Positions 20,077-50,783 of a stretch of 64,000 bases of DNA are shown here, in pieces. The translations under genes were made by a program, and so were the position numbers. The notes under the pieces are model-generated. The model was not told the DNA's origin, ran no database searches, and saw only the letters and a program-made list of their open reading frames with translations. Where the stretch lies: positions 186,001 through 250,000 of the forward strand of contig NZ_QASA01000001.1 of the NCBI RefSeq assembly GCF_003340495.1, written 5' to 3'. This stretch comes from Adhaeribacter pallidiroseus. Lineage in GTDB: Bacteria > Bacteroidota > Bacteroidia > Cytophagales > Hymenobacteraceae. Every line of letters begins with the position of its first letter. The first letter of the stretch is position 1.

Positions 20077-20964
20077 TTAATTCTTGCTGCTAAAGCTGTT
20101 CTGATGCTGGAATTTATACTCTTGCGGGGTTTTGTTGGTTGTGGCTTTGAATTGCTTATTAAAATTAGACAAATTATTAAAACCCGACTCGTAGCAAATC
20201 TGGGAAACCGTTAATTTCTCATCCAGCAAAAGTTTACAGGCATACCCCACCCGGATTTCGTTTAAAAACTGCACAAACGATTTTTGAGTAACCCGCTTAA
20301 AGTACCGGCAAAATGCCGCCGGGTTCATGCTGGCCACATCCGCAGCTTGCTCCAAAGAAATATTCTCCAAAAAATTATTCATAATAAAATTGTATACCTT
20401 ATTAATACGGGCCGTATTGCTGGCCTGATAGGAATGAATAAAGCCCGGACTAGCTAGTAGTTCCAGTTCATCGGAATGAGCTATAATATTTAAAATTTGC
20501 ATTAAAGCGATAACCCGCTCTCCGGCCGTAAGCCGGAATACCTTCTTCATTTTGCGCTGAACAATTTCTCCCGTCCGTCCGAAAATTCGAATACCTTGGG
20601 TAGCCGTGCGCAGTAAATTTTGAATGGGTTGCAGTTCCGGCAATTGAAAAAAATCCTTGCCCGCAAAATCTTCCAGAAAGAAAAAATTCATTAATTCCGC
20701 CTGTAGATCTTCCCGTTCCAGGTAATATTCTTTATCGTTGCGCCAAACGTGCGGCAAGTTAGAACCAACCAGTACTGTATCGCCATCCGAAAAAGCACCT
20801 ACGTGGTCACCGATAAAACGGGTGCCGGTTCCTCTTATAATGGCGTTCAACTCCAATTCCTGGTGATAATGCCAGGTATCGTAAGTATGCGGCACCCGCG
20901 CATGTTGCATCTGAAAAGACTGTTCAAAGCTTTTGGTGTTCTTTTTTAAATAAAGCGGATGCAT
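20077..20964 (-). CDS. AraC-family transcriptional regulator with N-terminal cupin
   Basis: 295 residues. The N-terminal cupin-like sensor (WHYHQELELNAIIRGTGTRF, then DGDTVLVGSNLPHVW) would bind a sugar-type ligand. Two HTH motifs form the C-terminal AraC domain (ISLEQAADVASMNPAAFCRY, then VSQICYESGFNNLSNFNKQF). It is transcribed away from the SusC/SusD operon start and is its likely local regulator. It is a paralogue of the regulator at 44071, with the same order of motifs (IGDH / VGDH, SNLPH / PNLPH, LLASPGF / LLVSPGF, VRVGYACKLLL-like). The family is certain; the ligand is unknown. Confidence 0.92.
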   Translation of the reverse strand: MHPLYLKKNTKSFEQSFQMQHARVPHTYDTWHYHQELELNAIIRGTGTRFIGDHVGAFSDGDTVLVGSNLPHVWRNDKEYYLEREDLQAELMNFFFLEDFAGKDFFQLPELQPIQNLLRTATQGIRIFGRTGEIVQRKMKKVFRLTAGERVIALMQILNIIAHSDELELLASPGFIHSYQASNTARINKVYNFIMNNFLENISLEQAADVASMNPAAFCRYFKRVTQKSFVQFLNEIRVGYACKLLLDEKLTVSQICYESGFNNLSNFNKQFKATTNKTPQEYKFQHQNSFSSKN

Positions 20965-21338
20965 TTTTAAATTTTCTTCTTTATAGATGACCAGTCAACG
21001 ACATTATACCTAAACTTTTCACTCCGCAATTTAAAATCCGATCATAGGACATAACCAGAAGCTCCCATGCGAATCTATTGTTATTATCCGGGCCAACTTC
21101 AACCTAAAATTTGCCATTAAAAATTATCCATGGTTTAAAGATGCAAAAATAGTATCAGTTCTGGCAAATTTTGATAAGGCGAAGCAGCATCAATTACTAT
21201 AATTTTACTAAATACTTAGAAGAAATAGAAGCTTAAATTTAAAATTTATTAATGCTTCGGCTTATTCGCTTCCTGGCAATGCTGATAAAATACTTTTTTA
21301 AATTTTAATACACTATTTAAAATTTTATAGATAAGGCA
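20965..21338. promoter_or_regulatory. Divergent control region of the AraC gene and the SusC operon
   Basis: 374 bp of AT-rich DNA between two start codons. A stretch near 21139-21215 (TGCAAAAATAGTATCAGTTC, then GCAGCATCAATTACTATAAT) partly resembles the shared 38-bp element found at 36400, 45589 and 49773. The match is weak. No hairpin or ORF was seen. Confidence 0.35.
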
Positions 21339-33813: not shown

Positions 33814-33820
33814 TGGATAT

Positions 33821-33924
33821 AAGTAGCAAGTATCAGGACACCGATATCAAGATGTAAGTATCAGGACACAAGTATCAGGATGTAAGTATCAGGACACAGG
33901 TATCAGGACACAGGTATTAAGATG
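33821..33924. repeat. Short tandem repeat, unit about 15-17 bp (GTATCAGGA core)
   Basis: Five copies of GTATCAGGA followed alternately by CAC or TG (AAGTATCAGGACAC, AAGTATCAGGATGT), with degenerate flanking units. The array lies directly after the mannonate oxidoreductase stop in an otherwise AT-rich 416-bp spacer. Confidence 0.8.
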
Positions 33925-34229
33925 AAAGAATTATAACCGGTATACTCTGCCTCGGCCTGTGTCTTCACAGACCGAAAGAAAGGCTTCAATTAATACTATT
34001 TTAAAAAAATCGAGAAGGCAAAGACTGGGGATTCAGCTTGCTAGATGATAAAAAATTTAAAAAATAAGCGCAAACATTCGATCTCTAGCCTGTAGGAGGT
34101 GCTTATTTCGTTTCGGAACTAACAAGTTTCCTGCTGAATAATAGGCCTTAACTACACTATTAAAAATTGTGTCTTGCCAATAAAGTGTTAGAGTTTCCAA
34201 GATTTATACTTCAACTAAAAAATAAGAAA

Positions 34230-34973: not shown

Positions 34974-35109
34974 AAATCTGTTGAATTGCTGAATTGCTGA
35001 TTTACTAGATTGATTCTGAATATAAAATTCTATTTCAACTTTACAACCTTCCAACTTTTTAACCTTCCAACCTACAACTTGCAACTTGTAACCTGCAACC
35101 TCATCTCCC

Positions 35110-36105
35110 ATGAAATTGTCCATGCTTTTGCCCCCTAAATACGACGAGCGTAAATGGACGCTGGCCAGACAAATCGGGGTAAATTATGCTATTACCAAAG
35201 CGGCGCCCGAGTTATCGGGCCGTGCAGCTCCTTATGATTTGGCTTCGTTACAAGCCATTAAAGAAGATTTCAACGAAGCTGGTTTTAATTTGTATGGTCT
35301 GGAAGGCGACCAGTTTGATATGTCGGCAATTAAGCTGGGTTTACCCGGCCGGGATGCATTAATTGAAAAATACCAAGCCATGCTCCGGAATATGGGCCGC
35401 CTGGAAATACCCTTGTTGTGTTACAATTTCATGGCGGTAATTGGCTGGTTCCGCACCCGCGTGGATATTCCCGAAAGAGGCGCCGCCATCGTGAGTGAAT
35501 TTAACGTGGTAGATACGGCTGGTCAGGTGGTACCCGCAGAACAGCAAATAAGCGAAGAAAAGCTTTGGGAGAATTTTTTTTACTTTCTAGAGGCCGTTTT
35601 ACCCGTAGCGAAAGAAGCTGGCGTAAAAATGGCCTTGCACCCCGACGATCCACCCATCAGTCCTTTAAAGGGGGTAGCTCGGATACTCACCAGTGCCGCC
35701 GCTTTTGACAAAGTTTGGGAAAAGTTTCCTGTAGAAAGCAACAGCATTACCTTTTGCCAGGCTACGTTTAAAATCATGGGCGAAAATTTAAAAAACATCT
35801 CCCGAAACTGGTTACAGCAAAACCGGATTGCCTTTCTGCATCTTCGCGATGTAGCCGGCGACAAATACCATTTCCGGGAAACCTTTCACGACAACGGCCC
35901 CACCCCCATGGCGGAGCTGTTGAAACACTATGCCGATAACGGCTTCACCGGTCCCTTACGCCCCGACCATGCGCCGGCCATGTACGGCGAAAACCAAAAT
36001 ACCTTTGCGGGTGGGATGTCGGTAGGCTACGAAATTACGGGGAAAATCTTTGCCGTTGGCTGTATCAAAGGCGCTGCAGATGCCTGTAATATCCCGATGG
36101 AATAA
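35110..36105 (+). CDS. uxuA: Mannonate dehydratase UxuA
   Basis: 331 residues. It dehydrates D-mannonate to 2-keto-3-deoxygluconate (KDG) in the cytoplasm. Metal and substrate residues of the family are visible: MALHPDDPP (His177, Asp179-180), ITFCQATFKIMG, FLHLRDVAGDKYHFRETFHD (His244, His260) and PLRPDHAP (Asp286-His287). The starting MKLSMLLPPKYDERKWTLAR is near the family N-terminus. It is about 60 residues shorter than the E. coli enzyme but similar to the shorter bacterial form. With uxaC and the SDR this defines the glucuronate branch rather than galacturonate. Confidence 0.93.
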   Translation: MKLSMLLPPKYDERKWTLARQIGVNYAITKAAPELSGRAAPYDLASLQAIKEDFNEAGFNLYGLEGDQFDMSAIKLGLPGRDALIEKYQAMLRNMGRLEIPLLCYNFMAVIGWFRTRVDIPERGAAIVSEFNVVDTAGQVVPAEQQISEEKLWENFFYFLEAVLPVAKEAGVKMALHPDDPPISPLKGVARILTSAAAFDKVWEKFPVESNSITFCQATFKIMGENLKNISRNWLQQNRIAFLHLRDVAGDKYHFRETFHDNGPTPMAELLKHYADNGFTGPLRPDHAPAMYGENQNTFAGGMSVGYEITGKIFAVGCIKGAADACNIPME

Positions 36106-36180
36106 ATAATCAGGAAAAAGAAACACGGTAGAGTACCGGATACCTGCGGGATAAAACTGCCAGTTTTGCCCATTTTACCA

Positions 36181-36239
36181 AGTTATGTTAAAGCCCCTGC
36201 GCCTCTTATTACCAGAAGCGCAGGGGCTTTAACATAACT
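36181..36239. terminator. Long hairpin after uxuA, probable transcription end
   Basis: Perfect 22-bp arms (AGTTATGTTAAAGCCCCTGC and GC, then the complement) with a 15-base loop. It lies 76 bp after uxuA. There is no strong T tract, so termination rests on the stem alone. Confidence 0.6.
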
Positions 36240-36399
36240 CTTAAAAAAAAGCTAGTCACAATTTTAGAGCAGCGAAGCGCCGGAGCGCATTAGTCAACAA
36301 AAAAGCAACCTGGCTAAATAGCCGGTTAATGTTACCTGCTGGCAAAAGAAACATGGACGAATACTGAGTGCTGGCTAAACGGATACCGTTAAAAATAAA

Positions 36400-36437
36400 G
36401 ATAAAATTTTTGTAAAAACTGATAAAAAAGCATCAAG
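36400..36437 (+). promoter_or_regulatory. Shared upstream element, copy 1
   Basis: GATAAAATTTTTGTAAAAAC, then TGATAAAAAAGCATCAA. It aligns with copies at 45589-45626 and 49773-49810 over 38 bp. Conserved blocks are GATAA-AT-TTTGTA and GCAYCAA. It lies 235 bp before the Gfo/Idh start. Confidence 0.6.
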
Positions 36438-36672
36438 AAGTTCCTGCCAAATATTTGACATTTGTACAAGCTGGTTTATCAAATTAAAGAACAGTAAAGG
36501 GCAGTCGTATAACCGGAAATTTTAAAAATGTTTTACTACTCGCTTTAAATCAAGTTTTAACTAAACCTGCTTAACCGGGTTGCAGGATTACTTGCGGCCA
36601 GTTTTTACTTTAACTGAAGCTTCTAACGGCTAAATACACCAGCTAAAATATTTTGATTCCAAAACAAATATC

Positions 36673-37878
36673 ATGGAAGACAAACCATACAAAATTGCGC
36701 TATTGGGCACTGGTTTAATAGGTACTTTTTATACGACGAGTTTGCACGGGCAACGCCGCATGGATAAGGTGCACACCGTTTATTCGCGTTCGGAAGAACG
36801 GGCAAAAACCTTTGCCCAGCAATGGAATATTCCTAATTACGAAACAGATATGTTACGAGCCATTCAATCGGCGGATATTGATGTGGTAGTAATTGGTTTG
36901 CCTAATAACCTGCATTTAGAGGCAGTACGGGCAGCTGCTGCAGCCGGTAAAGCCATTTTATGTACCAAACCCCTGGGCCGAAATGCCGCCGAGGCTTTGG
37001 AGATGCTTAAAATTGTGGAAGAAGCCGGGGTCTTTCACGGCTATCTGGAAGATTTGGCTTATCCGGCCAAAACGCTGAAAGCGCTAAGTTCTATCCGGAA
37101 CGGGGCTCTGGGAAAAATACTGTGGACCCGTTCCCGGGAAGCCCACCCGGGGCCGCACAGCGATTGGTTCTGGGATGCCCAACTTTCCGGCGGCGGCGCT
37201 ATCATCGATATGGGCTGCCATTGCATTGAAATCGGCCGAAATTACATTGGCAAAGACATCCGACCGGTAGAAGTAATGTGCTGGGCCGATACGTTGGTAA
37301 AGCCGATTGAAGCCGAAGACAATGCCATTGGTTTAGTGCGCTACGCCAGCGGGGCCGTGAGCCAGTTTGAAGTAAGCTGGACCTACCGGGGCGGTATGGA
37401 TTTACGGGACGAAGTGGCGGGCACGGAAGGTACGCTGCGGGTAGATCATTTTTTACGAACCGGTATGGAGTTGTTTACCAGTGTGGGCGAAAAAGGCTAT
37501 GTAGCCGAAAAAGCCGAAAGTGAAACCGGGTGGCTCTTTCCGGTGGGTGACGAAGCCCACGCCTTAGGGTATCCGCAAATGTTTGAAGATATGTTTACCG
37601 CCCTGGATAAAGGCGAATCGCCCATGGAAACTTTTTACGATGGTTATGTGGTGAATGCCATTATGGATGCCTGCTATTTATCGGCGAAAACCAAAAAATG
37701 GGAGCCCGTAAATTTAGAAGTATGGCGCGGCAATGAAGCCGAAGACCAGCAACGCGAATATAAAGAATACGATAACAATCACTACCTGATCAAGGAAGAA
37801 CTCTTACCCGATGGCCGAAAAAAAATAATTCTGAAAGAAAAATCCGGTGGCCAGCTGGTACAACGTGTGCTGGATTAA
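36673..37878 (+). CDS. Gfo/Idh/MocA-family NAD(P)-dependent oxidoreductase
   Basis: 401 residues. The Rossmann start is [15 protein letters not shown] (G12-x-G14-x-x-G17), followed by [20 protein letters not shown], the cofactor Lys in [10 protein letters not shown], and the active-site His region [14 protein letters not shown]. The C-terminal substrate domain ends with a charged tail. It oxidises or reduces a sugar or inositol-type substrate; the exact substrate cannot be told. It is preceded by the shared 38-bp element. A gap of 556 bp with repeat debris separates it from the next SDR gene. Confidence 0.92.
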
Positions 37879-38123
37879 CAACTACAGAAAGCAGGTGTTA
37901 GTTATTTGTTGTTCGTAATTTTAAAATAATGCTATGGCAATCATCAGATTACGATACTATAGAACTTCCGCTAAAAAAACTCAAGAGTCTTTTTGTGAAG
38001 ACACCAACGACGGAAATGCCCGTTAGTGATTTATTGGAAGTAAAAGGACAGATTTCTCTTTTGCTAGTTCTCATTATCTGGTTCAAGTTTGAGCGCAGCG
38101 GTAACTTGGACCGGTAAGTATAG

Positions 38124-38158
38124 GCCAGTTTTCAACTGGCGGGAAGTTGAAAACTTCC
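38124..38158. repeat. Two adjacent hairpins able to refold as one
   Basis: GCCAGTT-TTC-AACTGGC (38124-38140) is followed by GGAAGTT-GAA-AACTTCC (38142-38158). GTTTTCAACT (38128-38137) also pairs perfectly with AGTTGAAAAC (38145-38154), so the two forms exclude each other. It resembles REP units. Confidence 0.6.
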
Positions 38159-38185
38159 TCGTATCATAACCCTCCAGATACAATC

Positions 38186-38364
38186 TGCGGGAGCAAAGGG
38201 ATACAAACAACGGCACCGCCCACAGGCAATGTCCTCACTGCCAACTTTCGGGCAAGTCTTATGCTAAAAATTTAAAAAATGATCTTGACGAAGGTCTTAA
38301 ATTTAAAAAAGTAACATCTGCAGTACTAAAATTTCTTAGTGGTTATTTCTTAAGTAGTAAGTAA
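38186..38364 (+). pseudogene. Possible remnant of an IS1-like transposase zinc ribbon
   Basis: Two frames taken together give CGSKGIQ (TGC at 38186) and, after a shift, NNGTAHRQCPHCQLSGKSYAKN (CxxC at 38230-38241), then a helical tail ending at TAA 38362. The order C-GS-x-I, NG, R-QC-x-x-C resembles the N-terminal zinc ribbon of InsA-type proteins. It is short and frame-disrupted, and no inverted ends were identified. The surrounding 37879-38434 has no other supported gene. It could be fortuitous. Confidence 0.3.
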
Positions 38365-38434
38365 AAACCTTGAAATGTTTATAAACAAAATGATTGCCAC
38401 TATGGACTATCGTCTATGGACCATGGACTAAACT

Positions 38435-39216
38435 ATGCTGCAAAATAAGAATATTGTCATTATTGGGGGTACTTCCGGATTAGGTCTTTCGGCCGCAAAA
38501 GCTTTCTGCCGATTGGGAGCCAAGGTAGTAGCAGTGGGCCGCGATCCGGAAACTGGCCAGCAGGCCCAGCAAGAACTAGGTGCCTCCGCATTGGTCTTCA
38601 CGGGAGATGCAATCCAGGAAAATACCGCTGCTCAGGCCATTGCGTTATGCCTAAAAGAATTTGGGCGGCTGGACGGCTTATACCACGTTGCGGGCGGCAG
38701 TGGCCGGCGAATGGGCGATGGTCCTTTGCACGAAATTACCCTGGAAGGATGGCAAAAAACCTTGGATTTAAATCTGACTTCGGTGATGCTTTCTAATCAG
38801 GCGGCTATCCGGGTTTTTCGGGAAGCGAAACAAGGCGGTACCATTTTAAATATGGGCTCCGTTTTGGGTTATTCACCGGCCCCTACTTATTTTGCCACGC
38901 ACACCTACGCCACCGCTAAAGCCGCTATTATTGGTTTTTCAAAATCCATTGCTTCTTACTATGCCCCGGATAATATCCGGATTAATGTAATAGCACCCGC
39001 ATTAGTAGAAACACCCATGGCCCAGCGGGCGGCCCAGGATGCCAGTATTCAGGACTACATACGAACCAAACAACCCCTGGACGGAGGAAGAATTGGCCGC
39101 CCGGAAGATTTAGACCACGCGGCTGCTTTTTTATGTCCGATGGTTCTGGCTTTACTACCGGGCAAGTATTAGCGATAGACGGCGGTTGGAGTATTAGTGA
39201 TGGTCAGATAACCTAG
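38435..39216 (+). pseudogene. SDR-family oxidoreductase, frameshifted near its 3' end (possible sequence error)
   Basis: Frame 1 gives a classical SDR from 38435: IIGGTSGLGLSAAKAF, then VAGGSGRRM and active-site YATAKAA (YxxxK). It then breaks at HAAAFLC (about 39127-39136) and stops early at 39172. In the next frame the expected ending SDGSGFTTGQVLAIDGGWSI follows immediately and stops at 39216. One missing base (in the T6 run or at TGTCC) explains it. Restored length is about 260 residues, normal for the family. It would oxidise or reduce a sugar alcohol or acid intermediate. The ROK gene starts 6 bp later. Confidence 0.8.
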
Positions 39217-39221
39217 TATTG

Positions 39222-40156
39222 ATGCACATGACAACAGCTATCGGAATTGACTTAGGGGGCACCAATATAAAAGGAGCTCTGATTAATGCGGCTACCGGGG
39301 AGATTTTACACCAGACAGTACAAGCCACAGGATCCAACACCAGCCATAGTAATGGAGCTGGCAGCCATTGGAAAAAAGTTATTTGTCAAATAGTACAGGA
39401 ATTAAAATCCAAGAGCATTTACCCGGTAGATGCTCTTGGATTAGCTGCCCCAGGCTTACCAAATACAAGCAATACCTCTATTATAAACATGCCGGGCCGG
39501 CTCGATGGCCTGGAAAACCTTATTTGGTCAGAGGTATTGCAGGAGAAAGAATTATGGGTGTTAAACGATGCTCACGCTGCCCTGATGGCGGAAGCTACCT
39601 TCGGAGTAGGACAGAATTTTAAAAATATTGTAATGCTAACCCTGGGAACGGGGGTAGGCGGTGGTATATTAATCAATGGCGAATTATACCAGGGTAATTA
39701 CCAGATGGCGGGACACTTAGGCCACATGACCTTGGATGTAGACAGAGAAGACCCCGGCATTACCGGCATGCCCGGAACTTTAGAAAATGCTATGGGCGAT
39801 GCTACTGTCGCCATTCGGTCGTTTAAAAAATTTACCTCTACTAAAAGCCTGGTAGCGGCGCATTTGCAAGGAGATACGTTTGCTACTTATGTATGGCTCA
39901 ATTCCGTGCGGAAGCTGGCTCTGGGAATCTGTTCTATCTGTAATTTACTTTCCCCCGACCTGATTATTCTGGGGGCGGCATAACCAAGGCGGGCGATGCC
40001 TTATACAAACCCCTGGCTGATTTTATAGAGGTGTACGAATGGAAAAATTCCGGTAAAAAAACACCCATTCGGCAAGCCCATTACAGCGATATTGCCGGCG
40101 CCGTGGGGGCTGCCGGTTTTGCCATGAACCGGACATTACAAGGTCAATTACTATAA
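39222..40156 (+). pseudogene. ROK-family sugar kinase-like protein, frameshifted at a G run (possible sequence error)
   Basis: ATG 39222 or 39228 begins TAIGIDLGGTNIKGAL, the ATP-binding ROK start. LTLGTGVGGGILINGELYQG and AGHLGHMTLD follow. The frame ends at 39983 in ILGAA. Adding one G to the G5 run at 39971-39975 restores ILGGGITKAGDALYKPLADF and a normal C-terminus (IAGAVGAAGFAMN, stop at 40156), about 311 residues. The usual zinc motif CxCGxxGCxE is absent; the region reads DPGITGMPGTLENAMG. It would phosphorylate a sugar or be a diverged relative. Clustering with SIS and SDR genes suggests sugar catabolism. Confidence 0.8.
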
Positions 40157-40219
40157 TGATAGATTATTATTAAGTACCAAGCGAAAATCAGTTTTAAGTA
40201 CACAATCATTTATCTATGA

Positions 40220-40279
40220 CTGTCCTTCAGGAGGAAACTATTTGGCTACGTAGCCAAATAGTTTCCTCCTGAAGGACAG
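40220..40279. repeat. Perfect 60-bp palindrome
   Basis: CTGTCCTTCAGGAGGAAACT followed by ATTTGGCTAC, then its exact reverse complement with no spacer. It lies between the ROK and SIS genes. There is no T tract on either side. Confidence 0.9.
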
Positions 40280-40360
40280 AATACTTTAACTGATTTTGTC
40301 TAAATACGCAGTATAAATAGCAGTTTGATTGATAAAATTTAAAATTTTTTAAAAAAGAAC

Positions 40361-41158
40361 ATGGATGTTATTAAGGATTATCTGGATAAGTGCCGCCACA
40401 TTATAGAAGTAGTAGAAAAGCAAACCGAAGGAATAAAGACCGCCGCCGCTTGGTTTGCCCAAACCATTCTGGCCGGTCGTATGGTGCACGTGTTTGGTTC
40501 CGGACACAGCCGGATTATGGTGGAAGAAATGTGGCCCCGGTACGGCTCTTTTCCCGGCTTTAATCCCATTGTAGAGTTATCGCTAACTTTTCATAACCTG
40601 GTAGTAGGCGCTAATGGCCAACGGCAAGCCATGTTTTTAGAAAATGTACCCGGCCTGGCCGAAAGAATTTTACGCAATTTTGATTTGAGTAATCAGGATA
40701 CGGCTTTGGTCATTTCCTCCAGCGGTTGCAACGTGGTACCCATCGAAATGGCCGAAAATTTTCAAAAGCAAGGCCTTAAAGTAGTGGCTTTAATCACTTC
40801 CGAGCATTCGGCCCGCAGCACCAGCAAACGAAAAGATGGCAAAAAGCTGAGTGATTTCGCCGATCTGATATTAGACACGGGGGCTCCGGCCGGTGATGCT
40901 ATGGTATACGTGCCTCATTTAGATACCCCCGTAGCTCCGGGTTCTACGGTAGGCGGAGCCATTCTTATAAACTCTATCAAAGCCGAAGTAGCCCGTTTAT
41001 TAACCGAAGCCGGACAAGCACCTACCGTATTAAGCGGCGCCGTAATAGTAGGTAACGAAAGAGCCGTAGAGTTATTCGAAAATGCCTACGACCAGCATGC
41101 CCACCGCCTGGCCGGCCTGTATAAATCAGTAGGGCTGAATTTGCCGGTTGAATCGTGA
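40361..41158 (+). CDS. SIS-domain sugar isomerase-like protein
   Basis: 265 residues. The SIS fold is recognisable: VHVFGSGHSRIMVEEMWPRY (phosphosugar-binding loop from about residue 43), ALVISSSGCNVVPIEMAENF and VVALITSEHSARSTSKRKDG. DLILDTGAPAGDA and TPVAPGSTVGGAILINSIKA also fit the UPF0309 / SIS_2 group. Members bind phosphosugars, acting as isomerases, etherases or regulators. The neighbouring ROK kinase-like gene would supply a phosphorylated sugar (inference). It starts from ATG 40361 after an AT-only palindromic string. Confidence 0.88.
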   Translation: MDVIKDYLDKCRHIIEVVEKQTEGIKTAAAWFAQTILAGRMVHVFGSGHSRIMVEEMWPRYGSFPGFNPIVELSLTFHNLVVGANGQRQAMFLENVPGLAERILRNFDLSNQDTALVISSSGCNVVPIEMAENFQKQGLKVVALITSEHSARSTSKRKDGKKLSDFADLILDTGAPAGDAMVYVPHLDTPVAPGSTVGGAILINSIKAEVARLLTEAGQAPTVLSGAVIVGNERAVELFENAYDQHAHRLAGLYKSVGLNLPVES

Positions 41159-41276
41159 CAGCAACTTATTTTTTTTAATTATTCTGCTCAAAGTAAGCTG
41201 CTAATCAAAAATTTAAAAAATAAAGCTGTGGGCTGTCGTCTATGGACTGTGGACTCATCGGATTAACTAATAAACC

Positions 41277-42679
41277 ATGCTAAACTTTATCAACCATCAA
41301 CAGATACCATTAGTGGCCGAAATCGATATTTTGGTGATAGGAGCTGGTTCAGCTGGCTGTTTGGCGGCTTTAGCGGCCAGTCAGTCTAAAAAATACCGGG
41401 TGATGCTGGTAGAACGGTATGGCTTCCCGGGGGCACTTCTACCCAAATGCTGGATACCTTTTATGGTTTTTTTACTCCCAGCGAAACTCCTAAAAAAATA
41501 GTGGCCGGTTTACCCGATTTAATTGTAAATGAGCTAGATAAAACCGGTGATATTTTTTTACGCCCGAATACCTACGGCGCCGGCACTGGTGTCAATTACA
41601 ATCCGGAACGTTTAAAACTGGTTTGGGATCAAAAAATAGTACAGGCAGGTATTCGATTTCTGTTGCATACTACCCTGGTAGATGTGGTACGGAAAGAAGG
41701 GGAACCCATTACTTGTATTTTCTGGAATAAAAGTGGTTTTTTTAAAATTATTGCCCAAAGAGTAATTGATGCTTCCGGTGATGCCGATTTTTGCCATCTG
41801 GCCGGTTATGCCTACGAAGTAGCCGGCGAATTGGAGCCTGCCCAAAGCATGACCACCACTTTCCGGATGTGTAACGTAGACCTGGATAAATTTAAACAGG
41901 CCGGCGGCAAACACATGCTGCAAGAAAAAATGATTCAGGCCATCGAAACCGGTAAACACCCCTTGCCGCGTAAAGAAGGTTCGGCCCACGAAATGTGCCA
42001 GCCCGGCTGTATTTCTACGGTGGCGGTAAAAGTAAGTGGTTTACGAGCCTTACAAGCAGAAGAATTAACCCAGGCCGAAATAGAAGGAAGAAAACAGTCT
42101 TTTATTTACGAAGACTTTTTCCGCCAGGAAGTTCCCGGTTATGAGCATTCTAAAATTATCGGGCTATCGCACCAAATTGGCGTTCGGGAAACCCGGCGCG
42201 TATACGGCGAGTACCGCCTCACCAAAGAAGATTGCTTATCAGGCATTATGCCCGCCGACCGTATTTTTCTTTGCGGAGCGCCCATTGAAGACCACCGGCC
42301 CGGCAAAAACGGCGAAGACGAAACTTTCTGGCAATACATTCCGGAAAATGGCGTGTACGGGGTTCCTTACGGTACCATCGTACCCAAACAAAGCGAACGG
42401 GTTTGGGTAGTAGGCCGTTGCTTTTCGGCTACCCACGATGCGCATGCTTCCTGCCGCTCCATGGCCCAGACCATGTCGATGGGGCAAGCCGCGGGTTTAG
42501 CCGCGGTACTCTCTTTAGATACCGATACGGCTGCCAATGCGGTAAATATTCCGCAATTACAGGCAAAGCTGCTACAATTAGGGGCTATTCTGGATAACCC
42601 GGCTACAATAGCCGATACTAGCCGAAACGGTTGGCAAAATAATTTCCGGGTCCAAAACACCCTAGCTCATTCGTTGTAA
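41277..42679 (+). pseudogene. FAD-dependent oxidoreductase, frameshifted at a G run (possible sequence error)
   Basis: The N-terminal frame gives the FAD-binding EIDILVIGAGSAGCLAALAA and VERYGFPG, then breaks at the G5 run 41429-41433. The second frame continues TSTQMLDTFYGFFTPSETPK-like sequence to 42679. One extra G restores ERYGFPGGTSTQMLD, the standard motif of the FAD_oxidored (PF12831) family, and about 468 residues. Other motifs are RVIDASGDADFCHLAG, MCQPGCIS, GVRETRR and ARCFSATHDAHASCRSMAQT-like (GRCFSATHDAHASCRSMAQ). It probably oxidises a sugar or polyol-derived compound. The phosphotriesterase-family gene follows after 11 bp. Confidence 0.85.
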
Positions 42680-42690
42680 TTTCTGAATCC

Positions 42691-43677
42691 ATGGAACCAA
42701 GCCCTAACCAGAAATTTGTGCGTACCGTACTCGGCGATATTTCGCCGGAGGCAATGGGATTAACGTACTCCCACGAGCACATTATTATCGACGAAAGCTA
42801 CCCGACCCTGGGCAATCCTTTGTTTTTGCTGAATGACGTAGAAAAAGTTAGTGAGGAACTGCACCGTTTTTACGCTGCGGGTGGCCGCACCATGGTCGAT
42901 ACCATGCCGGCCGATTGTGGCAGAAATGTGCGCAAGCTGGCCGAAGTGTCCCGGAGAACCGGCGTGCACATTATCGTCCCCACCGGCATTCATTTGGAGC
43001 AATACTATTTGCCTAATCATTGGCGCTACACCTACACCGAAGAGCAATTAACCCGATTATTTGTGGCCGATGTAACAGAAGGCATTGATGCGCATGACTA
43101 TAACGGGCCTTACGTAGAGCGCACCCCGCACAAAGCCGGTATGGTAAAACTGGCTACCGGCGACGAAAAAATTACGGCGCACCAGGAAAAAATCTTTCAC
43201 GCGGTAGTAAATACCCATAAAGAAACCGGGGTTCCCATTTTAACGCATACCAATTTCGGTAAACATGCCCTGGACCAGGTAAACTTGTTTGCCAAACTAG
43301 GCGCTGATTTAACCCACGTGGTGCTCTCGCATGTAGACCGCTACCAAGATATTAACTATAACCGGGAATTGCTGCAAACCGGCGTTAAAGTAGAATACGA
43401 TAGCGCCTTCCGCTGGAAAAACGAACCTAACTGGACCTATAAATTGCTGGAAGCCTTGCTGTCCGAATTTCCGGACCAGATTACCATGGGAATGGATGCC
43501 GCTAAAAGCAGTTACTGGCAATCTTACGGCGGAAACCCAGGCCTAAATTTCCTCATAACTACTTTTAAAGTAGACTTGCAGCAGATGGGTTTAGGAGAGT
43601 ACTACAACCATATATTTTTTAAAAATCCAGCGCGACTGTATGCCTTCTGTAAGAAAATTTTAAATTTTTATAAATGA
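42691..43677 (+). CDS. Phosphotriesterase-family metal hydrolase, probable lactonase
   Basis: 328 residues of amidohydrolase fold. Metal ligands are visible: H28-x-H30 in TYSHEHIIID, bridging Lys153 in AGMVKLATG, His186 in VPILTHTNFG, His214 in VVLSHVDRY and Asp269 in ITMGMDAAK. The ligand set is complete, so it should be active. Family members (COG1735) often open sugar lactones or phosphorylated lactones rather than phosphotriesters. It is last in the SDR-ROK-SIS-FAD oxidoreductase set, so hydrolysis of a lactone made by an upstream dehydrogenase is a reasonable inference. Confidence 0.88.
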   Translation: MEPSPNQKFVRTVLGDISPEAMGLTYSHEHIIIDESYPTLGNPLFLLNDVEKVSEELHRFYAAGGRTMVDTMPADCGRNVRKLAEVSRRTGVHIIVPTGIHLEQYYLPNHWRYTYTEEQLTRLFVADVTEGIDAHDYNGPYVERTPHKAGMVKLATGDEKITAHQEKIFHAVVNTHKETGVPILTHTNFGKHALDQVNLFAKLGADLTHVVLSHVDRYQDINYNRELLQTGVKVEYDSAFRWKNEPNWTYKLLEALLSEFPDQITMGMDAAKSSYWQSYGGNPGLNFLITTFKVDLQQMGLGEYYNHIFFKNPARLYAFCKKILNFYK

Positions 43678-44070
43678 AAGAAGAGAGTTTGTTTCGACTT
43701 AACCATTTACATATTACCAATTACTAATTACCAAGTAGCCATGCAACAAACAGCGTTAGCCAAGTGCAAGTTCTGACGCTAAACTGTTCGAGCGTTCAGC
43801 GAGTTTTTAGCGTCTTGACTTTTTTGGTTCTTTTTGTGTCAAGACAAAAAGAACAAGAAGCGAGCAATGAAACAGTTTCACTTCGAAATTAAAACAAAAA
43901 CTGCCGCTATGCGAACGAATATTTTAATAATTAAACAGTTGTTTGTAATAAAACACAAAGCTTTCCAAAACTATTACTTCATTTAAAAAGTGAATTTCTG
44001 ATTCACAGTACATTTTAAAGCTTTTCAGGAATAATTAGTTAAATTACGTAAGGCCCCAATTATTAGTACG
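43678..44070. repeat. Spacer with low-complexity repeat and an 11-bp-arm hairpin
   Basis: Contains ATTACCAATTACTAATTACC (about 43715-43735) and the inverted repeat GTTCTTTTTGT-GTCAAG-ACAAAAAGAAC (43827-43854), also bracketed by CTTGAC/GTCAAG. No ORF is supported. The hairpin text resembles an element common in Bacteroidota spacers. Confidence 0.55.
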
Positions 44071-44961
44071 ATGAAACCGCGACTGGAAAAACTAACTTTA
44101 GAGCCGAAATATTCTTTTATTCTGCAAAAGGATGTTTATCCCTATTATCCTACTCCCTGGCATTATCATCCGGAGTACGAGTTGGTATTGGTTTTAAAAA
44201 GTTCTGGCCAGCGAACCGTGGGCGACCATACTGATACTTTTACCGACGGCGATTTGGTGTTTTTAGGTCCAAATTTACCGCATGCCTATCAAAATGACCC
44301 AGCTTATTACCAGGGAAACCCAGACCTGACGGCTGAAGCTATTGTGATTCACTTTCGGGAAGAATTTTTGGGTAAAACGTTTTTTAACTTACCCGAAATG
44401 ATTGCCATCAATCAACTTTTCGATAAAGCCAAATTCGGTTTAAAAATTACTGGAAACACCCGGCAGCAGATTGCGGATAAGATGCAGGAAATGCTAACGC
44501 TTAGCGGTTACCGGCGCATTACGCACTTGTTGCATATCCTGGAGCTTCTGTCTTTATCCGACGAATACCAACTTTTGGTAAGTCCCGGATTTGTAGAGCA
44601 ATATGTGCCGGCGGGTACCGATCCTATTACCAAAGTGCATGCCTACATTATTGCCAATTTCCGGAAAGATATATCCCTGGCTAATGCCGCCGAAGTGGCC
44701 AACATGTCCATTCCTTCGTTTTGCCGTTCCTTTAAAGCCTGCACCCGGAAAAGTTTTTCGCACTTTTTAAATGAAGTGAGGGTAGGGTATGCTTGTAAGT
44801 TGCTCCTGGAAGATAAGTTTAATATTTCGCGGGTTTGCTACGAAAGCGGCTTTAATAACATGTCTAATTTTAATCTACAATTTAAAAAAGTTACTGGTAT
44901 TCCGCCTTTAAAGTATAAGAAAATGCGAAACGAGAATCCTTCTTATAGTTCCGGGTCATAA
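44071..44961 (+). CDS. AraC-family transcriptional regulator with N-terminal cupin (paralogue of the one at 20077)
   Basis: 296 residues. The cupin sensor is PWHYHPEYELVLVLKSSGQR, then FTDGDLVFLGPNLPHAYQND. The AraC DNA-binding domain is ISLANAADVANMS-like (ISLANAAEVANMSIPSFCRS) plus ISRVCYESGFNNMSNFNLQF. Motif order and length match the regulator beside the SusC operon. It lies about 950 bp upstream of the PQQ-type dehydrogenase unit, one of the three units bearing the shared 38-bp element, and is a good candidate for its regulator (inference). Confidence 0.92.
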   Translation: MKPRLEKLTLEPKYSFILQKDVYPYYPTPWHYHPEYELVLVLKSSGQRTVGDHTDTFTDGDLVFLGPNLPHAYQNDPAYYQGNPDLTAEAIVIHFREEFLGKTFFNLPEMIAINQLFDKAKFGLKITGNTRQQIADKMQEMLTLSGYRRITHLLHILELLSLSDEYQLLVSPGFVEQYVPAGTDPITKVHAYIIANFRKDISLANAAEVANMSIPSFCRSFKACTRKSFSHFLNEVRVGYACKLLLEDKFNISRVCYESGFNNMSNFNLQFKKVTGIPPLKYKKMRNENPSYSSGS

Positions 44962-45908
44962 AAGCGAAGTACAATTATAAGATTGCTTATGTATTCGCAT
45001 AGTGGCGGCTGTTGCGCTACCTTTTACTAAAGCTGTTTTTTGCTCGGGTATTGATTCTTTTTGCCTGGACACAAGGACTCTTCCGCCCTTTAGGGCGATT
45101 TCCCTAAAAACAGGGAAGGAGATGTGGCTATCCTGAGATTAACAAAAATCAAGCTTGCTAAAAACCTACTGAGCAACGGAATAGTTTAGCGGGGCTACTT
45201 GCACCTGGCCAAAGCAGTTTGTTGCATGACTATCAAAAAAATTAAAATTTTTAAATTTTTTGTAATGCTCCAATCATAAAGCAAACGAAAGAGGGAAAAG
45301 TCCTCCTTCCGAGTGGCTAGGAGAAAAATAAATTCGCGCACAACTATTCTGGTGTTTAATAAATGGTAAATGGAAATTGATAAATGGTAACTATAAAAAA
45401 GCTTCCCTCCTTGAATAAGGAGGGGCAGAGTTGGTTAATTTTGGCGTTAATTTAACGCTGTTATATTCTGACATCCTTCCTCTACGCCCCATTTATTTAA
45501 AAAATCAATTTAAAATACCCTTTTGTTTAAGTAGATATTTCAGCGCTTTTAACTAGCGGTATACAGCGTGAAGAGCCTGTAATTACTCTGATAAAATATT
45601 TGTAGTAAATGGCAAAATAGCACCAATATGGTAGTTTAAGTTGAGGCATATTTGAATAATCATTCAATATAGAATGGTGAGGGTTCAAACACAACTTATT
45701 ACTTTTTGCAGCCTGGCCTAAATCAGAAGTTAGCTTGCCGCACCTTCATAATTAAAAATACTCCGGATCTGGAGGCATAAAGGTGCCTCCGCTGCGGAGC
45801 TGTCGTTTTGTACTAATCAGGCAGAAACAGGCGGTATCGGTATTGATTAACTTATTATTCTGATAGTTGAATAACAGCAATTAAAATGATCAATCGTAAT
45901 TTTTAAAG
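44962..45908. repeat. Long spacer with several hairpins and the shared element
   Basis: 947 bp with no supported ORF. Seen are TTCCCT-AAAAAC-AGGGAA near 45110, an AT-only palindromic string near 45240 and TAAATGGTAAATGG repeats near 45358. A CCCTCCTT-GAAT-AAGGAGGG hairpin lies at 45405-45423. The shared element is at 45589-45626. A nested stem lies at 45761-45799 (CTCCG, GGAGGCA/TGCCTCC, CGGAG). Confidence 0.55.
45589..45626 (+). promoter_or_regulatory. Shared upstream element, copy 2
   Basis: TGATAAAATATTTGTAGTAA, then ATGGCAAAATAGCACCAA. A second conserved box CATATTTGAATA follows at 45647-45658, at the same distance as in copy 3 (49831). It lies 283 bp before the dehydrogenase gene. Confidence 0.6.
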
Positions 45909-48728
45909 ATGTTACACGTACGAATATTTAAGGGAATTTTGGTGGTTCTAAAAAATAAATGGGTTGGTTTTTTTCTAATCGGTATTTCTATAGCCAGTAG
46001 TTTTTACTCCTGTAAAGGCACTGGTAATACTCTTCCTGCGAGTAATAACTCTCCATTGGGTACTTCAGTGCAATCGCCGATTGCTAAACCAGACTCCAAC
46101 CGTTTTCAGAAAATAGAGTTAATTTCTCATTTAAATGAACCCTTGGAGTTGCAGGTTTTGCCGGAGGGCGATGTCTTGTTTATTGAACGAACGGGTGCTT
46201 TAAAGCTTTTTAAGGCAGCTATAAACAAGGTGAAGGTGCTGGCTAATCTTCCGGTATTTCACGATTTAGAAGATGGATTGCTGGGATTAGTGATCGACCC
46301 GGACTTCCCCAGTAACCGTTTTATTTACCTTTTTTATTCGCCGTTGGGTGAAAAAGAAGAACAACGGGTGTCCCGGTTTTATCTGGGACCGGATGCTTTA
46401 GACTTGAAATCTGAAAAAATACTATTAGAAATTCCGACACAACGCAAAGAATGCTGCCATTCGGCGGGTTCGCTGGCTTTTGGGCCCGATAAGAATTTAT
46501 ACATTGCCGTCGGCGATAATACCAACCCGCACAACGCCGGTTATTACAACTCCATCGACGAAAGACCGGGGCGGGCATTCTGGGACGCGCAACGAACAGC
46601 CGGTAATACCAACGATTTGCGGGGAAAAATTCTGCGGATTAAACCCGAACCCGATGGCTCGGTTTCCATTCCGGTGGGCAATTTATTTCCTGTAAATACC
46701 CCAAATACCCGGCCCGAAATTTACGCCATGGGTGCCCGGAACCCGTACCGGATTACCGTTGATTCCCTGACTGGCTGGTTGTATTGGGGCGATGTAGGCC
46801 AAAATACCATTAATAATCCCGCCCGCGGGCCGGTTAGTTACGATGAATTTCACCAGGCCAAAAAGCCGGGCTTTTTTGGGTGGCCTTATTTTGCCGGAGA
46901 TAATCAACCGTATGCCGATTTTGACTTTGCCACCGATCAGATTGGCCCCTTCTTCAACCCTCAAAAGCCCGAAAACAACTCTCCGAATAATACAGGTTTA
47001 GCAACATTGCCACCCGCAGAAAGTGCTTTCATCTGGTACTCTTACGACGAGTCTCAAAATTTTAAAAATTTAGGTACCGGGGGTAAAAGCCCCATTGCTG
47101 GTCCGTTTTTTCATTCTCAATTTTATCAACAGCAGCCCGTTTGGGTAAAGACTCCCCGCAAGTTTCCGGAATATTATAATGGCAAATGGTTTATTGCCGA
47201 ATGGATGCGCGATTGGATAAATGTAGTAACCTTAGACGAAACCGGTAAACTAGTAGACATAGAACGGTTTATGCCTTCCGCTAAGTTTGACCACCCCATT
47301 GATTTAGAGTTTGGACCCGATGGCGCGCTCTACGTTTTAGAATACGGTACGGGTTGGTTTGCCCATAACCAGAATGCCCGCCTGAGCCGGATTGATTATG
47401 TAGCCGGAAACCGACCGCCAGTCGCTAAAATAAACGCCAGTAAAACGGCGGGCGCGGTGCCCTTAACAGTAGCTTTCTCCGCTGCCGAATCTTTTGACTA
47501 CGATAAAAATGACAAACTAACTTACGCCTGGCAACTGGTGAATCCGGAAGAAAAGCTCGCAACGGAGCCCGAAACCAACTACCAGTTTAAGCAGCCAGGC
47601 CTGTATACAATTCGCTTAACCGTAACCGACGACCATGGCCTAAGCGCTACGCAGGATTTAAAAATAGAAACAGGAAACGAAAGGCCGGCCGTAAATATAG
47701 CTTTTGGGGGGAACGAAACTTTTTACTGGAACCAAAAAGCAAAAACTTACCAAGTACAAGTGCAGGATAGAGAAGATGGCAGTTTGGCCACCGGAAAAAT
47801 TGCCCCGCAGGCTGTATTAGTAACCGTAAATTTAGCCGATATGGGTACGGATTTAACGCTCCTGGCCCAGGACCAGGAAAAACAAGCTACCCTTTACCTG
47901 CACCCCGGGCAGCAGCTGATTAAACAAAGCGATTGCTTGGGTTGTCACCAGGAAAAAACCAAATCCATTGGCCCGTCTTGGCAGCAAGTAGCCAGCCGCT
48001 ATCCGGAAAACGAGAAAACCATAGAAACTTTAACCCAAAAAATCAGGCAGGGTGGCAACGGCAACTGGGGCGAAGCCGCTATGTCGGCCCATCCCCAACT
48101 AAAAGCACCGGAAATTTTCCAAATGGTAAAGTACATCTTAAATTTAAAAAAAGAACCCACGGCCAATAACCAGTTGCCGGTAAAAGGCACTTTTGTACCG
48201 GATAGTAAAGCCGAAGGACTCTACGTGTTTCGGGCTGTTTACCAAGATAAAGGGTTTAACGCTGCTCCCGCGCAGGTGGGCCAAACCACGCATGTTTTAC
48301 GTAACGCCCTGGTCAAGGCTATCTCGTGCGAGGAGCTGAGCGGGGTAACGCGCTATAACAATTCCTACATCCGTTTTCCGGCCCAAAAAAGCTTTATCAG
48401 CTTCCAGAATATGGACCTGACCGGCATTGCCAGTTTAAAAGTAGCATTTGATGCTACTTTCCCTTGCACCTTATCCGTTCGGTTAGATCAGCCCGATGGC
48501 GTAGAAATTGGCTCCTTAAAGTTACAACCGGCTGCCAAGCCGGCCGAAAATAAAAACATTACGGCCACCATCAGCACATGGACCGAACAGGAATTAAAAC
48601 TAAAGCCTTTATCAGGAAAGCACCACCTGTACCTGGTAGCTACTGATATTCAAGCAGGCGCTACCGGCAGTAATTATTTGAGCCTGAATACTATTTATTT
48701 TCTTCCCCCTCGGGGTAATAGCCTATAG
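45909..48728 (+). CDS. PQQ-type sugar dehydrogenase propeller with PKD, cytochrome c and C-terminal sugar-binding-like domain
   Basis: 939 residues, lipoprotein start (SIASSFYSCKG). Residues about 70-490 form a soluble glucose/sorbosone dehydrogenase-like propeller: LLGLVIDPDFPSNRFIYLFY, then GRAFWDAQRTAGNTNDLRGK, GARNPYRI and DLEFGPDGALYVLEYGTGW. A PKD domain follows (about 500-590, GAVPLTVAFSAAESFDYD). A cytochrome c domain carries C676-LGC-H680 with a MSAHPQL distal Met region. A C-terminal jelly-roll like CBM6 (about 790-939) completes it. It would oxidise sugars in the periplasm or at the surface and pass electrons to its own haem. The next gene follows after 38 bp. Confidence 0.85.
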   Translation: MLHVRIFKGILVVLKNKWVGFFLIGISIASSFYSCKGTGNTLPASNNSPLGTSVQSPIAKPDSNRFQKIELISHLNEPLELQVLPEGDVLFIERTGALKLFKAAINKVKVLANLPVFHDLEDGLLGLVIDPDFPSNRFIYLFYSPLGEKEEQRVSRFYLGPDALDLKSEKILLEIPTQRKECCHSAGSLAFGPDKNLYIAVGDNTNPHNAGYYNSIDERPGRAFWDAQRTAGNTNDLRGKILRIKPEPDGSVSIPVGNLFPVNTPNTRPEIYAMGARNPYRITVDSLTGWLYWGDVGQNTINNPARGPVSYDEFHQAKKPGFFGWPYFAGDNQPYADFDFATDQIGPFFNPQKPENNSPNNTGLATLPPAESAFIWYSYDESQNFKNLGTGGKSPIAGPFFHSQFYQQQPVWVKTPRKFPEYYNGKWFIAEWMRDWINVVTLDETGKLVDIERFMPSAKFDHPIDLEFGPDGALYVLEYGTGWFAHNQNARLSRIDYVAGNRPPVAKINASKTAGAVPLTVAFSAAESFDYDKNDKLTYAWQLVNPEEKLATEPETNYQFKQPGLYTIRLTVTDDHGLSATQDLKIETGNERPAVNIAFGGNETFYWNQKAKTYQVQVQDREDGSLATGKIAPQAVLVTVNLADMGTDLTLLAQDQEKQATLYLHPGQQLIKQSDCLGCHQEKTKSIGPSWQQVASRYPENEKTIETLTQKIRQGGNGNWGEAAMSAHPQLKAPEIFQMVKYILNLKKEPTANNQLPVKGTFVPDSKAEGLYVFRAVYQDKGFNAAPAQVGQTTHVLRNALVKAISCEELSGVTRYNNSYIRFPAQKSFISFQNMDLTGIASLKVAFDATFPCTLSVRLDQPDGVEIGSLKLQPAAKPAENKNITATISTWTEQELKLKPLSGKHHLYLVATDIQAGATGSNYLSLNTIYFLPPRGNSL

Positions 48729-48766
48729 GGTAAAAGGAAAATTTTAAATTTTTAAAAATAAGATCA

Positions 48767-49750
48767 ATGATCCATAATCGCCGTTCATTTCTGGGTTACC
48801 TGGCCAGCTTTCCCGCTTTTGGTTTGGTCCATAATTTAAAAATTGGGGAAAATCCGTTATCGGCAGAAAAATTACCCTTTGCTACGAATGAATATTCCTG
48901 GATTACTTTTTCCAAACGCCAAGGCCGGGATTGGTTCACCGATTTAGATGCCTCTTTAAGCGAGCTGGCAAAATCGGGTATTAAAGGCTATGAACCCGCA
49001 ATCAAAAAACCGGAAGATCTCCAACAGTTGGCGCCGCTACTGAAGAAACATAAACTGGAAATGCCTTCTATTTATGTTGGCAATACCTTGCATCAAGAAA
49101 AAGAAGCCGCGCAAAGCCTGGCGCAAACGGTAGCTATTGCCAAGGCCGCAAAACCGCTGGGTTTAAAAATAATAGTAACGAATCCCAGCCCCATTCGCTG
49201 GGGCGGACCAGAAAATAAGTCTGATGCAGAATTAACTACGCAGGCTAATTACCTGAATAAAATAGGCGCTGAAGTTCGGAAGCAGGGAGTAACTTTGGCT
49301 TACCACAACCACGATATAGAGATGCGAAATTCGGCGCGGGAGTTTCACCACATGATGCTTGCCACTAATCCCGAAAATGTGTCGTTGTGCCTGGAAGCGC
49401 ATTGGTTATACCGTGGTTCCGGTAATTCGCAATTAGCGATGTTTGATATATTGCGTTTGTACGGTAGTCGGGTGGTGGAAGTACATTTACGGCAATCCAT
49501 TAACGGTACCTGGTCAGAAACTTTTAAAGAAGGCGACATTGATTACCTGAAACTGGCTAAAGAATTAGCCGATTTAAAAATAAATCCGCACTTTGTACTG
49601 GAACAATGCATCGAGAGCCAAACCGCTAACACCCTCGATGCGGTAGCAGCGCATCAAGCAGATTTAAAATACGCTTCTAATGTATTTGCTTCTTTTAAAA
49701 ATGTAAAAAGTTCTGGTGTTTATAAAAAACAAAACGAATCAATGAAATAG
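48767..49750 (+). CDS. Sugar phosphate isomerase/epimerase family TIM barrel, exported (first paralogue)
   Basis: 327 residues. The N-terminus NRRSFLGYLASFPAFGLVHN resembles a Tat-type leader. The AP-endonuclease-2-type TIM barrel has ELAKSGIKGYEPAI, then VTLAYHNHDIEMR (metal-binding His), VSLCLEAHWLYRG, VVEVHLRQSINGTWSETFKE and HFVLEQC. Such proteins act as sugar epimerases, isomerases or inosose dehydratase-like lyases. It lies 38 bp after the PQQ-type dehydrogenase and is surely co-transcribed, so it may act on the oxidised sugar (3-keto or similar; inference). Confidence 0.85.
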   Translation: MIHNRRSFLGYLASFPAFGLVHNLKIGENPLSAEKLPFATNEYSWITFSKRQGRDWFTDLDASLSELAKSGIKGYEPAIKKPEDLQQLAPLLKKHKLEMPSIYVGNTLHQEKEAAQSLAQTVAIAKAAKPLGLKIIVTNPSPIRWGGPENKSDAELTTQANYLNKIGAEVRKQGVTLAYHNHDIEMRNSAREFHHMMLATNPENVSLCLEAHWLYRGSGNSQLAMFDILRLYGSRVVEVHLRQSINGTWSETFKEGDIDYLKLAKELADLKINPHFVLEQCIESQTANTLDAVAAHQADLKYASNVFASFKNVKSSGVYKKQNESMK

Positions 49751-49772
49751 GAGATATTTTAGAGGAGTACCC

Positions 49773-49810
49773 TGATAAGATATTTGTAAAAATCGGTAAA
49801 AAAGCATCAA
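49773..49810 (+). promoter_or_regulatory. Shared upstream element, copy 3
   Basis: TGATAAGATATTTGTAAAAA, then TCGGTAAAAAAGCATCAA, plus the second box CATATTTGAATA at 49831-49842. It lies 89 bp before the next start codon. Confidence 0.65.
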
Positions 49811-49898
49811 TATCTAAGTGTAAGTTTATTCATATTTGAATAGCCGTTCTTGTATTTAACAGGTAAACGGAACGACTAATAAGACCAATTTGCTGCTT

Positions 49899-50783
49899 AT
49901 GCTACCTCAAAACTTGTTTACCCGTCGTCAATTAATAAAGCGGAGTGCTTTAGTAGCCGGACTTGTTACCATTGCACCTTGGTGGACTTTGCTCTCTGCG
50001 GGTAAACTTAAAAAATACAAGATAAGTACCTGCGACTGGTCCATTGATAAGGGTAGTAAAGTAGAAGCTATGGCTTTGGCCAAGAAAATTGGGTTAGATG
50101 GCGTGCAAGTGAGTTTGGGAACCGTAGAAAACAACATGCATCTCCGCCTTCCGGAAATACAAAAAGCCTATAAAGAAGCCGCCAAGAAATATGGCGTGCA
50201 GGTGTCTAGTCTGGCTATTGGCGAATTAAACAATGTACCTTACAAATCGGAACCAATAACAGAAGAATGGGTAAGCGACAGTATTGATGTGGCCCAGGCC
50301 ATGGGGTGTAAAGTAATTTTGCTGGCGTTCTTTCATAAAGGCGACCTCCGGGGCGATAAAGCTGGAGTTCAGGAAGTAATCCGCCGGTTAAAAAAAGTAG
50401 CTCCTAAGGCCGAAAAAGCCGGCATAATACTGGGGATTGAGTCTTGGCTGAGTGCCCAGGAACATCTTGATATTATTCAAGCCGTTGGTTCTAAAAATGT
50501 GCGGGTGTATTACGATGTGGCAAATTCCACGCAAATGGGCTATAATATTTACGAAGAAATGAGCCAATTAGGCAAGGAGTACATCTGTGAAGTGCATGCC
50601 AAGGAAAATGGGTATTTACTAGGTCAGGGAAAAGTAGATTTCGTTCGGGTAAAAAAGATATTGGATGATATGGATTACGAAGGATGGGTGATTATCGAAG
50701 GAGCCGTTCCGGAAGGAGCCGATCCCTTCCAGTCTTATGTGGCTAACAACAAATACCTCCGGTCAGTCTTGAATAAGGCATAG
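49899..50783 (+). CDS. Sugar phosphate isomerase/epimerase family TIM barrel, exported (second paralogue)
   Basis: 294 residues from ATG 49899 (a TTG lies three codons upstream). A Tat-like leader FTRRQLIKRSALVAGLVTIA is present. TIM-barrel motifs are ISTCDWSIDKGSKVEAMALA, GLDGVQVSLG, AGIILGIESWLSAQEHLDII, VRVYYDVANST and CEVHAKENGYLLGQGKVDF. The metal-binding E-D-H-E set is recognisable (ESW, YDVAN, EVHAKE, IEGA). It has its own copy of the shared upstream element, so it starts a new unit that may include the CxxCH gene 132 bp downstream. Confidence 0.88.
   Translation: MLPQNLFTRRQLIKRSALVAGLVTIAPWWTLLSAGKLKKYKISTCDWSIDKGSKVEAMALAKKIGLDGVQVSLGTVENNMHLRLPEIQKAYKEAAKKYGVQVSSLAIGELNNVPYKSEPITEEWVSDSIDVAQAMGCKVILLAFFHKGDLRGDKAGVQEVIRRLKKVAPKAEKAGIILGIESWLSAQEHLDIIQAVGSKNVRVYYDVANSTQMGYNIYEEMSQLGKEYICEVHAKENGYLLGQGKVDFVRVKKILDDMDYEGWVIIEGAVPEGADPFQSYVANNKYLRSVLNKA

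Follow-up and report, generated by a model that had tools for sequence, protein, structure and literature searches.

A local operator of three sites in Adhaeribacter pallidiroseus, most likely for the AraC-family regulator AraC_44071

Results

A 38-bp element stands in front of three sugar-enzyme genes

The window (the whole stretch of A. pallidiroseus DNA that was analysed, 64,000 nucleotides) contains three copies of a 38-bp element, each followed by a short promoter-like box and a gene, as well as two genes for AraC-family regulators and one further site of similar layout in front of a SusC gene. The features are as follows.

20077..20964, - strand: AraC_20077, the second AraC-family regulator, divergent from SusC and proposed activator of the SusC site
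21143..21207, + strand: SusC site of the same layout (half-sites 21143-21157 and 21164-21178; box 21200-21207)
36399..36436, + strand: 38-bp element, copy 1 (half-sites 36400-36414 and 36421-36435), before the Gfo/Idh oxidoreductase gene
36457..36464, + strand: candidate -7 box GACATTTG, 20 bp past copy 1, predicted +1 near 36469
36673..37878, + strand: Gfo/Idh/MocA oxidoreductase, putative target of copy 1
44071..44961, + strand: AraC-family regulator AraC_44071, with an N-terminal cupin sensor and HTH_18, proposed activator of the three sites
45589..45626, + strand: 38-bp element, copy 2 (half-sites 45590-45604 and 45611-45625), before the GSDH/PKD/cytochrome c gene
45647..45654, + strand: candidate -7 box CATATTTG, 20 bp past copy 2, predicted +1 near 45659
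45909..48728, + strand: GSDH-type dehydrogenase with PKD and cytochrome c domains, putative target of copy 2
49773..49810, + strand: 38-bp element, copy 3 (half-sites 49774-49788 and 49795-49809), before the TIM-barrel epimerase-like gene
49831..49838, + strand: candidate -7 box CATATTTG, 20 bp past copy 3, predicted +1 near 49843
49890..50783, + strand: xylose-isomerase-like TIM barrel protein, putative target of copy 3

Positions 29656-43677 form a catabolic block that encodes an SSF transporter, a glucuronate isomerase, an SDR, an RraA-like protein, UxuA and a Gfo/Idh protein, and also a further SDR, ROK and SIS proteins, an FAD oxidoreductase and a PTE-like lactonase. The uronate enzymes UxaC and UxuA are encoded just upstream in the window. 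Pfam and NCBIfam matches hint at uronates, sugar lactones and 3-keto-glycosides as substrates; the NCBIfam matches to the enzymes are mostly below their cut-offs.

The initial annotation reported three sequences that align end to end, and that alignment stands, except that copy 1 starts at 36399 rather than 36400 and begins with AGATAA rather than TGATAA. All three copies are intergenic, on the + strand and within one 13.4-kb stretch, and copy 3 starts 23 bp past the last base of the preceding gene's stop codon. Over 38 bp the copies are 76-84% identical in pairs; their flanks are 23-32% identical in the 60 bp before the element and 27-42% in the 60 bp past the box, the 20-bp gap separating element and box is 30-65% identical and the 8-bp box 75-100%. 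The best gapless triple of 38-mers across the three intergenic regions reaches a sum-of-pairs score of 91/114, versus 59-65 in 12 dinucleotide shuffles. Each copy is built of two half-sites, with consensus sequences of about GATAAAAtATTTGTA (upstream) and about GATAAAAAAGyATCA (downstream); in copy 1 they read GATAAAATTTTTGTA and GATAAAAAAGCATCA, and their starts are 21 bp apart. A short hairpin-like repeat, CCCTCCTTGAATAAGGAGGGG, lies upstream of copy 2 at 45405-45425. It occurs at 7 places in the genome at two or fewer mismatches (0 for the control) and looks unrelated to copy 2.

The element is confined to three sites in the genome

A 37-base consensus, allowed up to three mismatches, matched the 6,425,974-base genome at exactly these three places, with 0 matches on the other strand and 0 for the reversed control. 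The pattern was derived from the copies and recovers them by construction, so the informative part of this result is the absence of a fourth match. A profile built from 13 sites outside this genome likewise ranked the copies as the top matches of the genome (41.4, 29.6 and 23.2 bits) and gave no fourth site, the next match having 14.8 bits (E 0.15; 150 of 7198 first-look candidates scored). With a matrix from seven non-window sites the copies scored 49.7, 43.8 and 33.8, and the next match in the window 0.6; for a ten-site matrix, the highest score in 20 column permutations, run over 1,670,255 bases, was 15.4. The duplicate loci L001-L008 were left out before both matrix scans.

In 97 other genomes a slightly looser pattern at three mismatches had no match. 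Such patterns are strict, missing even the sites of the congener (G006), and profiles were used instead. A profile search of 247 genomes found sites above 43 bits only in the A. pallidiroseus genome (G000; three sites) and the congener (two), both of which belong to its training set, and the next site had 24.3 bits; at E <= 0.05, 80 genomes gave a match of some kind, E-values being rough, filters stricter and 20 candidates scored per genome. Two weak matches lie near other AraC paralogs: one in the same genome (G000:C1:67701-67732, E 3.6), 116 bp from the matched end of a paralog at G000:C1:66818-67585, and one at G005:C1:825438-825476 (21.4 bits).

The expectation that the element would be enriched before many sugar genes was not borne out, as there are three sites only, all of them local, and a large genome-wide regulon was not found, own-genome scores falling after these to the fourth-ranked value given above. 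Nor did either of the outcomes named beforehand as counting against the element, matches at background rate or membership of a dispersed repeat, occur. The clustering of all three copies in one short stretch is what might be expected if the element were left over from a dispersed repeat or a local duplication and had no regulatory role. Such an origin is nonetheless barely credible, since the flanks are unrelated (23-42% identity), the genome searches gave no further copies, and related genes in other genera have kept the site in front of them; chance is rejected together with the dispersed repeat, given the distance between the observed triple and its shuffles.

The element travels with relatives of AraC_44071

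AraC_44071 has an N-terminal cupin domain and matches to HTH_18 (E=2.3e-19) and HTH_AraC (E=4.6e-6). Two AraC genes had been described as flanking the island, but the gene at 44071 sits between copies 1 and 2. Literature searches found no paper on this regulator.

The congener encodes a relative with 88% identity, and the nearest of the matches listed from the other 57 genomes searched was 48% identical. An AraC_44071 search at E <= 1e-88 gave matches in 0 of 394 other genomes of an evenly drawn sample of the class, which evidently lacked the congener and was uninformative on co-occurrence at that level. The best 80 of 564 confirmed relatives supplied the named and the paralog loci. The named loci, with 54-70% identity, come from Agriterribacter, two Pedobacter, two Parapedobacter and five MAG loci; the 70 paralog loci have at most 49%. 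Orthology was judged from identity and gene neighbourhood, and the relatives with 54-88% identity adjoin subsets of Gfo, SDR, ROK, SIS, FAD, PTE, TIM barrel and DUF7133 genes. In several genera, relatives of AraC_44071 have parts of the Gfo-SDR-ROK-SIS-FAD-PTE set around them.

In nine of the ten named loci, a 69-bp site-plus-box lies just upstream of the regulator gene and reads away from it, scoring 22.8-56.7 within 600 bp upstream when each locus's own and kin sites are removed from training and the strand directed away from the regulator gene is scored. The tenth, L028, has no convincing site upstream of its regulator (score -0.4). Nothing as strong was found upstream of the regulator in the 70 paralog loci, where the maximum was 12.2 and the top four scores all belong to Emticicia loci.

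The genes behind these sites resemble those of the window. Relatives of the Gfo gene have the site upstream in the congener, L029, L030 and L032, with no convincing site upstream of the L028 relative, and relatives of the TIM-barrel gene have it directly upstream in the congener, L026 and L027. In both L026 and L027 a second site precedes an SDR gene, and in L023 the site stands directly before DUF7133. Altogether, the site lies directly before a relative of a window gene in six named loci among the best 80 of 564 relatives. The two sites of the congener precede its TIM-barrel gene and Gfo; its 71% homolog of the 45909 gene sits in another context and has no site before it. The gene right after the site is not among the window's genes in L024, L025 and L031. 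Domain scans covered L024, L031 and the first gene of L025. Directly behind the site, L024 and L025 have a gene for a PhyH-family protein, which leads a tightly packed series with genes of the Gfo and TIM-barrel types, a relative of the 49890 gene among them. In L031 (L031:6894-9871), beside the AraC_44071 relative, the site is followed by a pair of 3-keto-disaccharide hydrolase genes and then a gene of the Gfo type. The L031 neighbours are a hint that 3-keto-glycosides may be processed by the regulon.

A box at fixed distance and the layout of the promoter

The initial annotation saw a second box in two of the copies only and no standard promoter in any. The box is in fact present in all three at the same distance, xAnnTTTG beginning 20 bp past the final CAA, and would serve as a -7 box; the part of the claim that stands is that a -33 TTTG is missing. 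A -7 box TAnnTTTG of the main sigma factor has been described for flavobacteria and B. fragilis, and PMC9723704 places it at -12 to -5. With the box of each copy in that position, the half-sites would lie at about -69/-55 and -48/-34. Such a placement is the class II layout of AraC-family activators.

Sixteen sites (three from the window, two from the congener and 11 from the nine named loci) align without gaps over 69 columns that include the box, so that the distance to the box is constant. All 16 have the A of the box and 13 of them an exact TTTG, with TATATTCG in both Pedobacter sites and GATATTGG in L032; the first T of the consensus is absent from all three window boxes, which have C or G instead. 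As judged from these letters, the xAnnTTTG box fits the -7 box of the Bacteroidota main sigma factor. The downstream half-site ends 21 bp before the box in 16/16 sites, at about -34, and where a -33 TTTG would stand the aligned sites have the end of this half-site (e.g., TCAA).

Conserved blocks at a fixed 20-bp distance with no -33 TTTG are also what would be seen if an alternative (ECF) sigma factor read the element's downstream box as -35 and xAnnTTTG as -10. We consider this very unlikely, because the downstream box is of the standard main-sigma type just described for flavobacteria and B. fragilis, the conserved block reaches to about -69, and the same design recurs beside other AraC paralogs with different half-site letters. 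A sigma factor reads less far upstream than about -69. A new sigma promoter is thus disfavoured.

Half-sites repeat at 21 bp in the sites and in the paralog family

Within the 16 sites, an offset of 21 scores best among offsets 8-30, although narrowly (0.483, with 22 at 0.463, 24 at 0.458 and 11 at 0.446); for the three window copies the value at 21 is 0.511, versus 0.422 for the runners-up. The repeat is clear in the paralog family. Removal of 10 near duplicates from the 70 paralog loci left 60 non-redundant ones (from the best 80 of 564 relatives), and upstream of their 37 divergent-strand TAnnTTTG boxes the period is 21, with 6.55/15 matches, as against 4.37/15 for control boxes from the same loci (n=688). 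At no period did any of 5000 control draws equal the divergent boxes. A slight peak at 21 is seen for the control boxes too (3.80-4.13 at other periods), and the divergent boxes are also elevated at 18, 19, 22 and 24. In the 70 loci before deduplication, the divergent strand (48 boxes) peaks at 21 and the AraC strand (14 boxes) does not.

Individual paralog loci show the same design in different letters. The Emticicia loci L091, L092 and L094 (about 9802-9872, - strand) have half-sites GTCAAAAAAATATTA / GACTAAATTTTAGTG before TAATTTTG, adjoining AraC paralogs. The Larkinella loci L033, L036 and L040 have half-sites GAAAAATAGTATCAG / GGATAAAAGTAACAG, 21 bp apart, before TACTTTTG and upstream of an AraC paralog; the first half-site, which is GAAGAATAGTATCAG in L033, resembles the SusC half-site of the window.

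A SusC site of the same layout probably belongs to AraC_20077

A weaker match before the SusC gene had been suggested, and it shares the layout of the three copies but differs in its letters. The half-sites, GCAAAAATAGTATCA and GCAAATTTTGATAAG, are 21 bp apart, and the box TAATTTTA at 21200-21207 keeps the spacing seen in the three copies. With matrices built from the three copies, the SusC site is not among the best matches in the window. The congener has a SusC-type site, with TAAATTTA, before its own SusC and adjoining an AraC_20077 relative; a pattern made from the two SusC sites has one match in each of these genomes and 0 in the other 37 searched. Since the window site has the same layout with different letters and lies between SusC and the divergent gene for AraC_20077, a paralog with 46% identity to AraC_44071, this paralog is its likelier regulator. 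AraC_20077 probably runs SusCD in the same manner from this site, a weaker reading, based on two related genomes.

That degree of kinship, together with the common spacing, raises the possibility that the 38-bp element is itself bound by AraC_20077 or another AraC paralog, or is common to several, rather than belonging to AraC_44071 alone. By eye, the upstream SusC half-site GCAAAAATAGTATCA matches the downstream consensus GATAAAAAAGTATCA at 12/15 positions. The distribution of the sites makes this unlikely: among the best 80 of 564 relatives, the 38-bp type adjoins close AraC_44071 relatives from other genera in nine of ten loci and nothing of such strength lies upstream of the regulator in the 70 paralog loci, while SusC has a distinct version that is kept in the congener beside the AraC_20077 relative.

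Discussion

The 38-bp element is most likely a real, local operator of three sites for AraC_44071. The initial annotation had left the choice between an operator and a new promoter class. The operator part is supported, with AraC_44071 as the best candidate to bind it, and a new class is needless, as a -7 box is present and a half-site fills the -33 position. We are confident, though from sequence comparison, that the three copies are class-II activation sites of AraC_44071, with half-sites near -69/-55 and -48/-34 that replace the -33 box.

Under this mechanism, each element would take two AraC_44071 subunits, on half-sites that, at 21 bp apart, would present the same face of the DNA, and the downstream half-site would end at about -34, in a promoter with the xAnnTTTG -7 box and no -33 TTTG. 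The cupin domain would sense a ligand, presumably a sugar or sugar derivative, whereupon AraC_44071 would recruit RNA polymerase at the promoters at 36.5, 45.7 and 49.8 kb. The diverged paralog AraC_20077 would probably act on SusCD by the same means. Binding, the ligand, the start sites and the role of AraC_44071 as an activator rather than a repressor are what we infer.

It is also somewhat better than an even bet that the cupin-AraC subfamily across Bacteroidota uses one fixed promoter design, in which half-sites spaced by 21 bp, the downstream one replacing the -33 element, precede a lone -7 TAnnTTTG, and in which paralogs differ mainly in half-site letters. If true, the fixed design would allow regulon and regulator to be paired by sequence at many uncharacterised sugar loci. 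For this locus, an uncharacterised AraC regulator can be linked to a defined operator and three promoters, and to sugar-oxidising enzymes that form a conserved set in environmental Bacteroidota, and the spacing rule may aid in finding activator sites in a phylum where the -33 box is often unrecognisable.

That the element belongs to a known, ordinary kind of gene switch is well supported. At E. coli AraC araI1-I2 and at class II sites of RhaS, two tandem half-sites are used, the downstream one extending into the -35 region. The window sites share this tandem layout, and differ in belonging to another phylum and in having xAnnTTTG as the core promoter. Closer to the window, motifs of the AraC-family regulator RhaR, whose sites were studied in Bacteroides, Bacillales and Enterococcus groups, have a 21-bp periodicity in Bacteroides (PMC3870299); the likeness is one of spacing, half-site letters aside, and unlike the RhaR targets, those in the window are not rhamnose genes by Pfam and NCBIfam scans. 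Although the window regulators are cupin-AraC proteins of 295-296 aa without a kinase or receiver domain match, unlike the HTCS of Bacteroides thetaiotaomicron, the HTCS motifs, as described in PMC3878776, are direct repeats at an average distance of 21 bp and lie beside SusC/D and sugar genes, as do the sites in the window.
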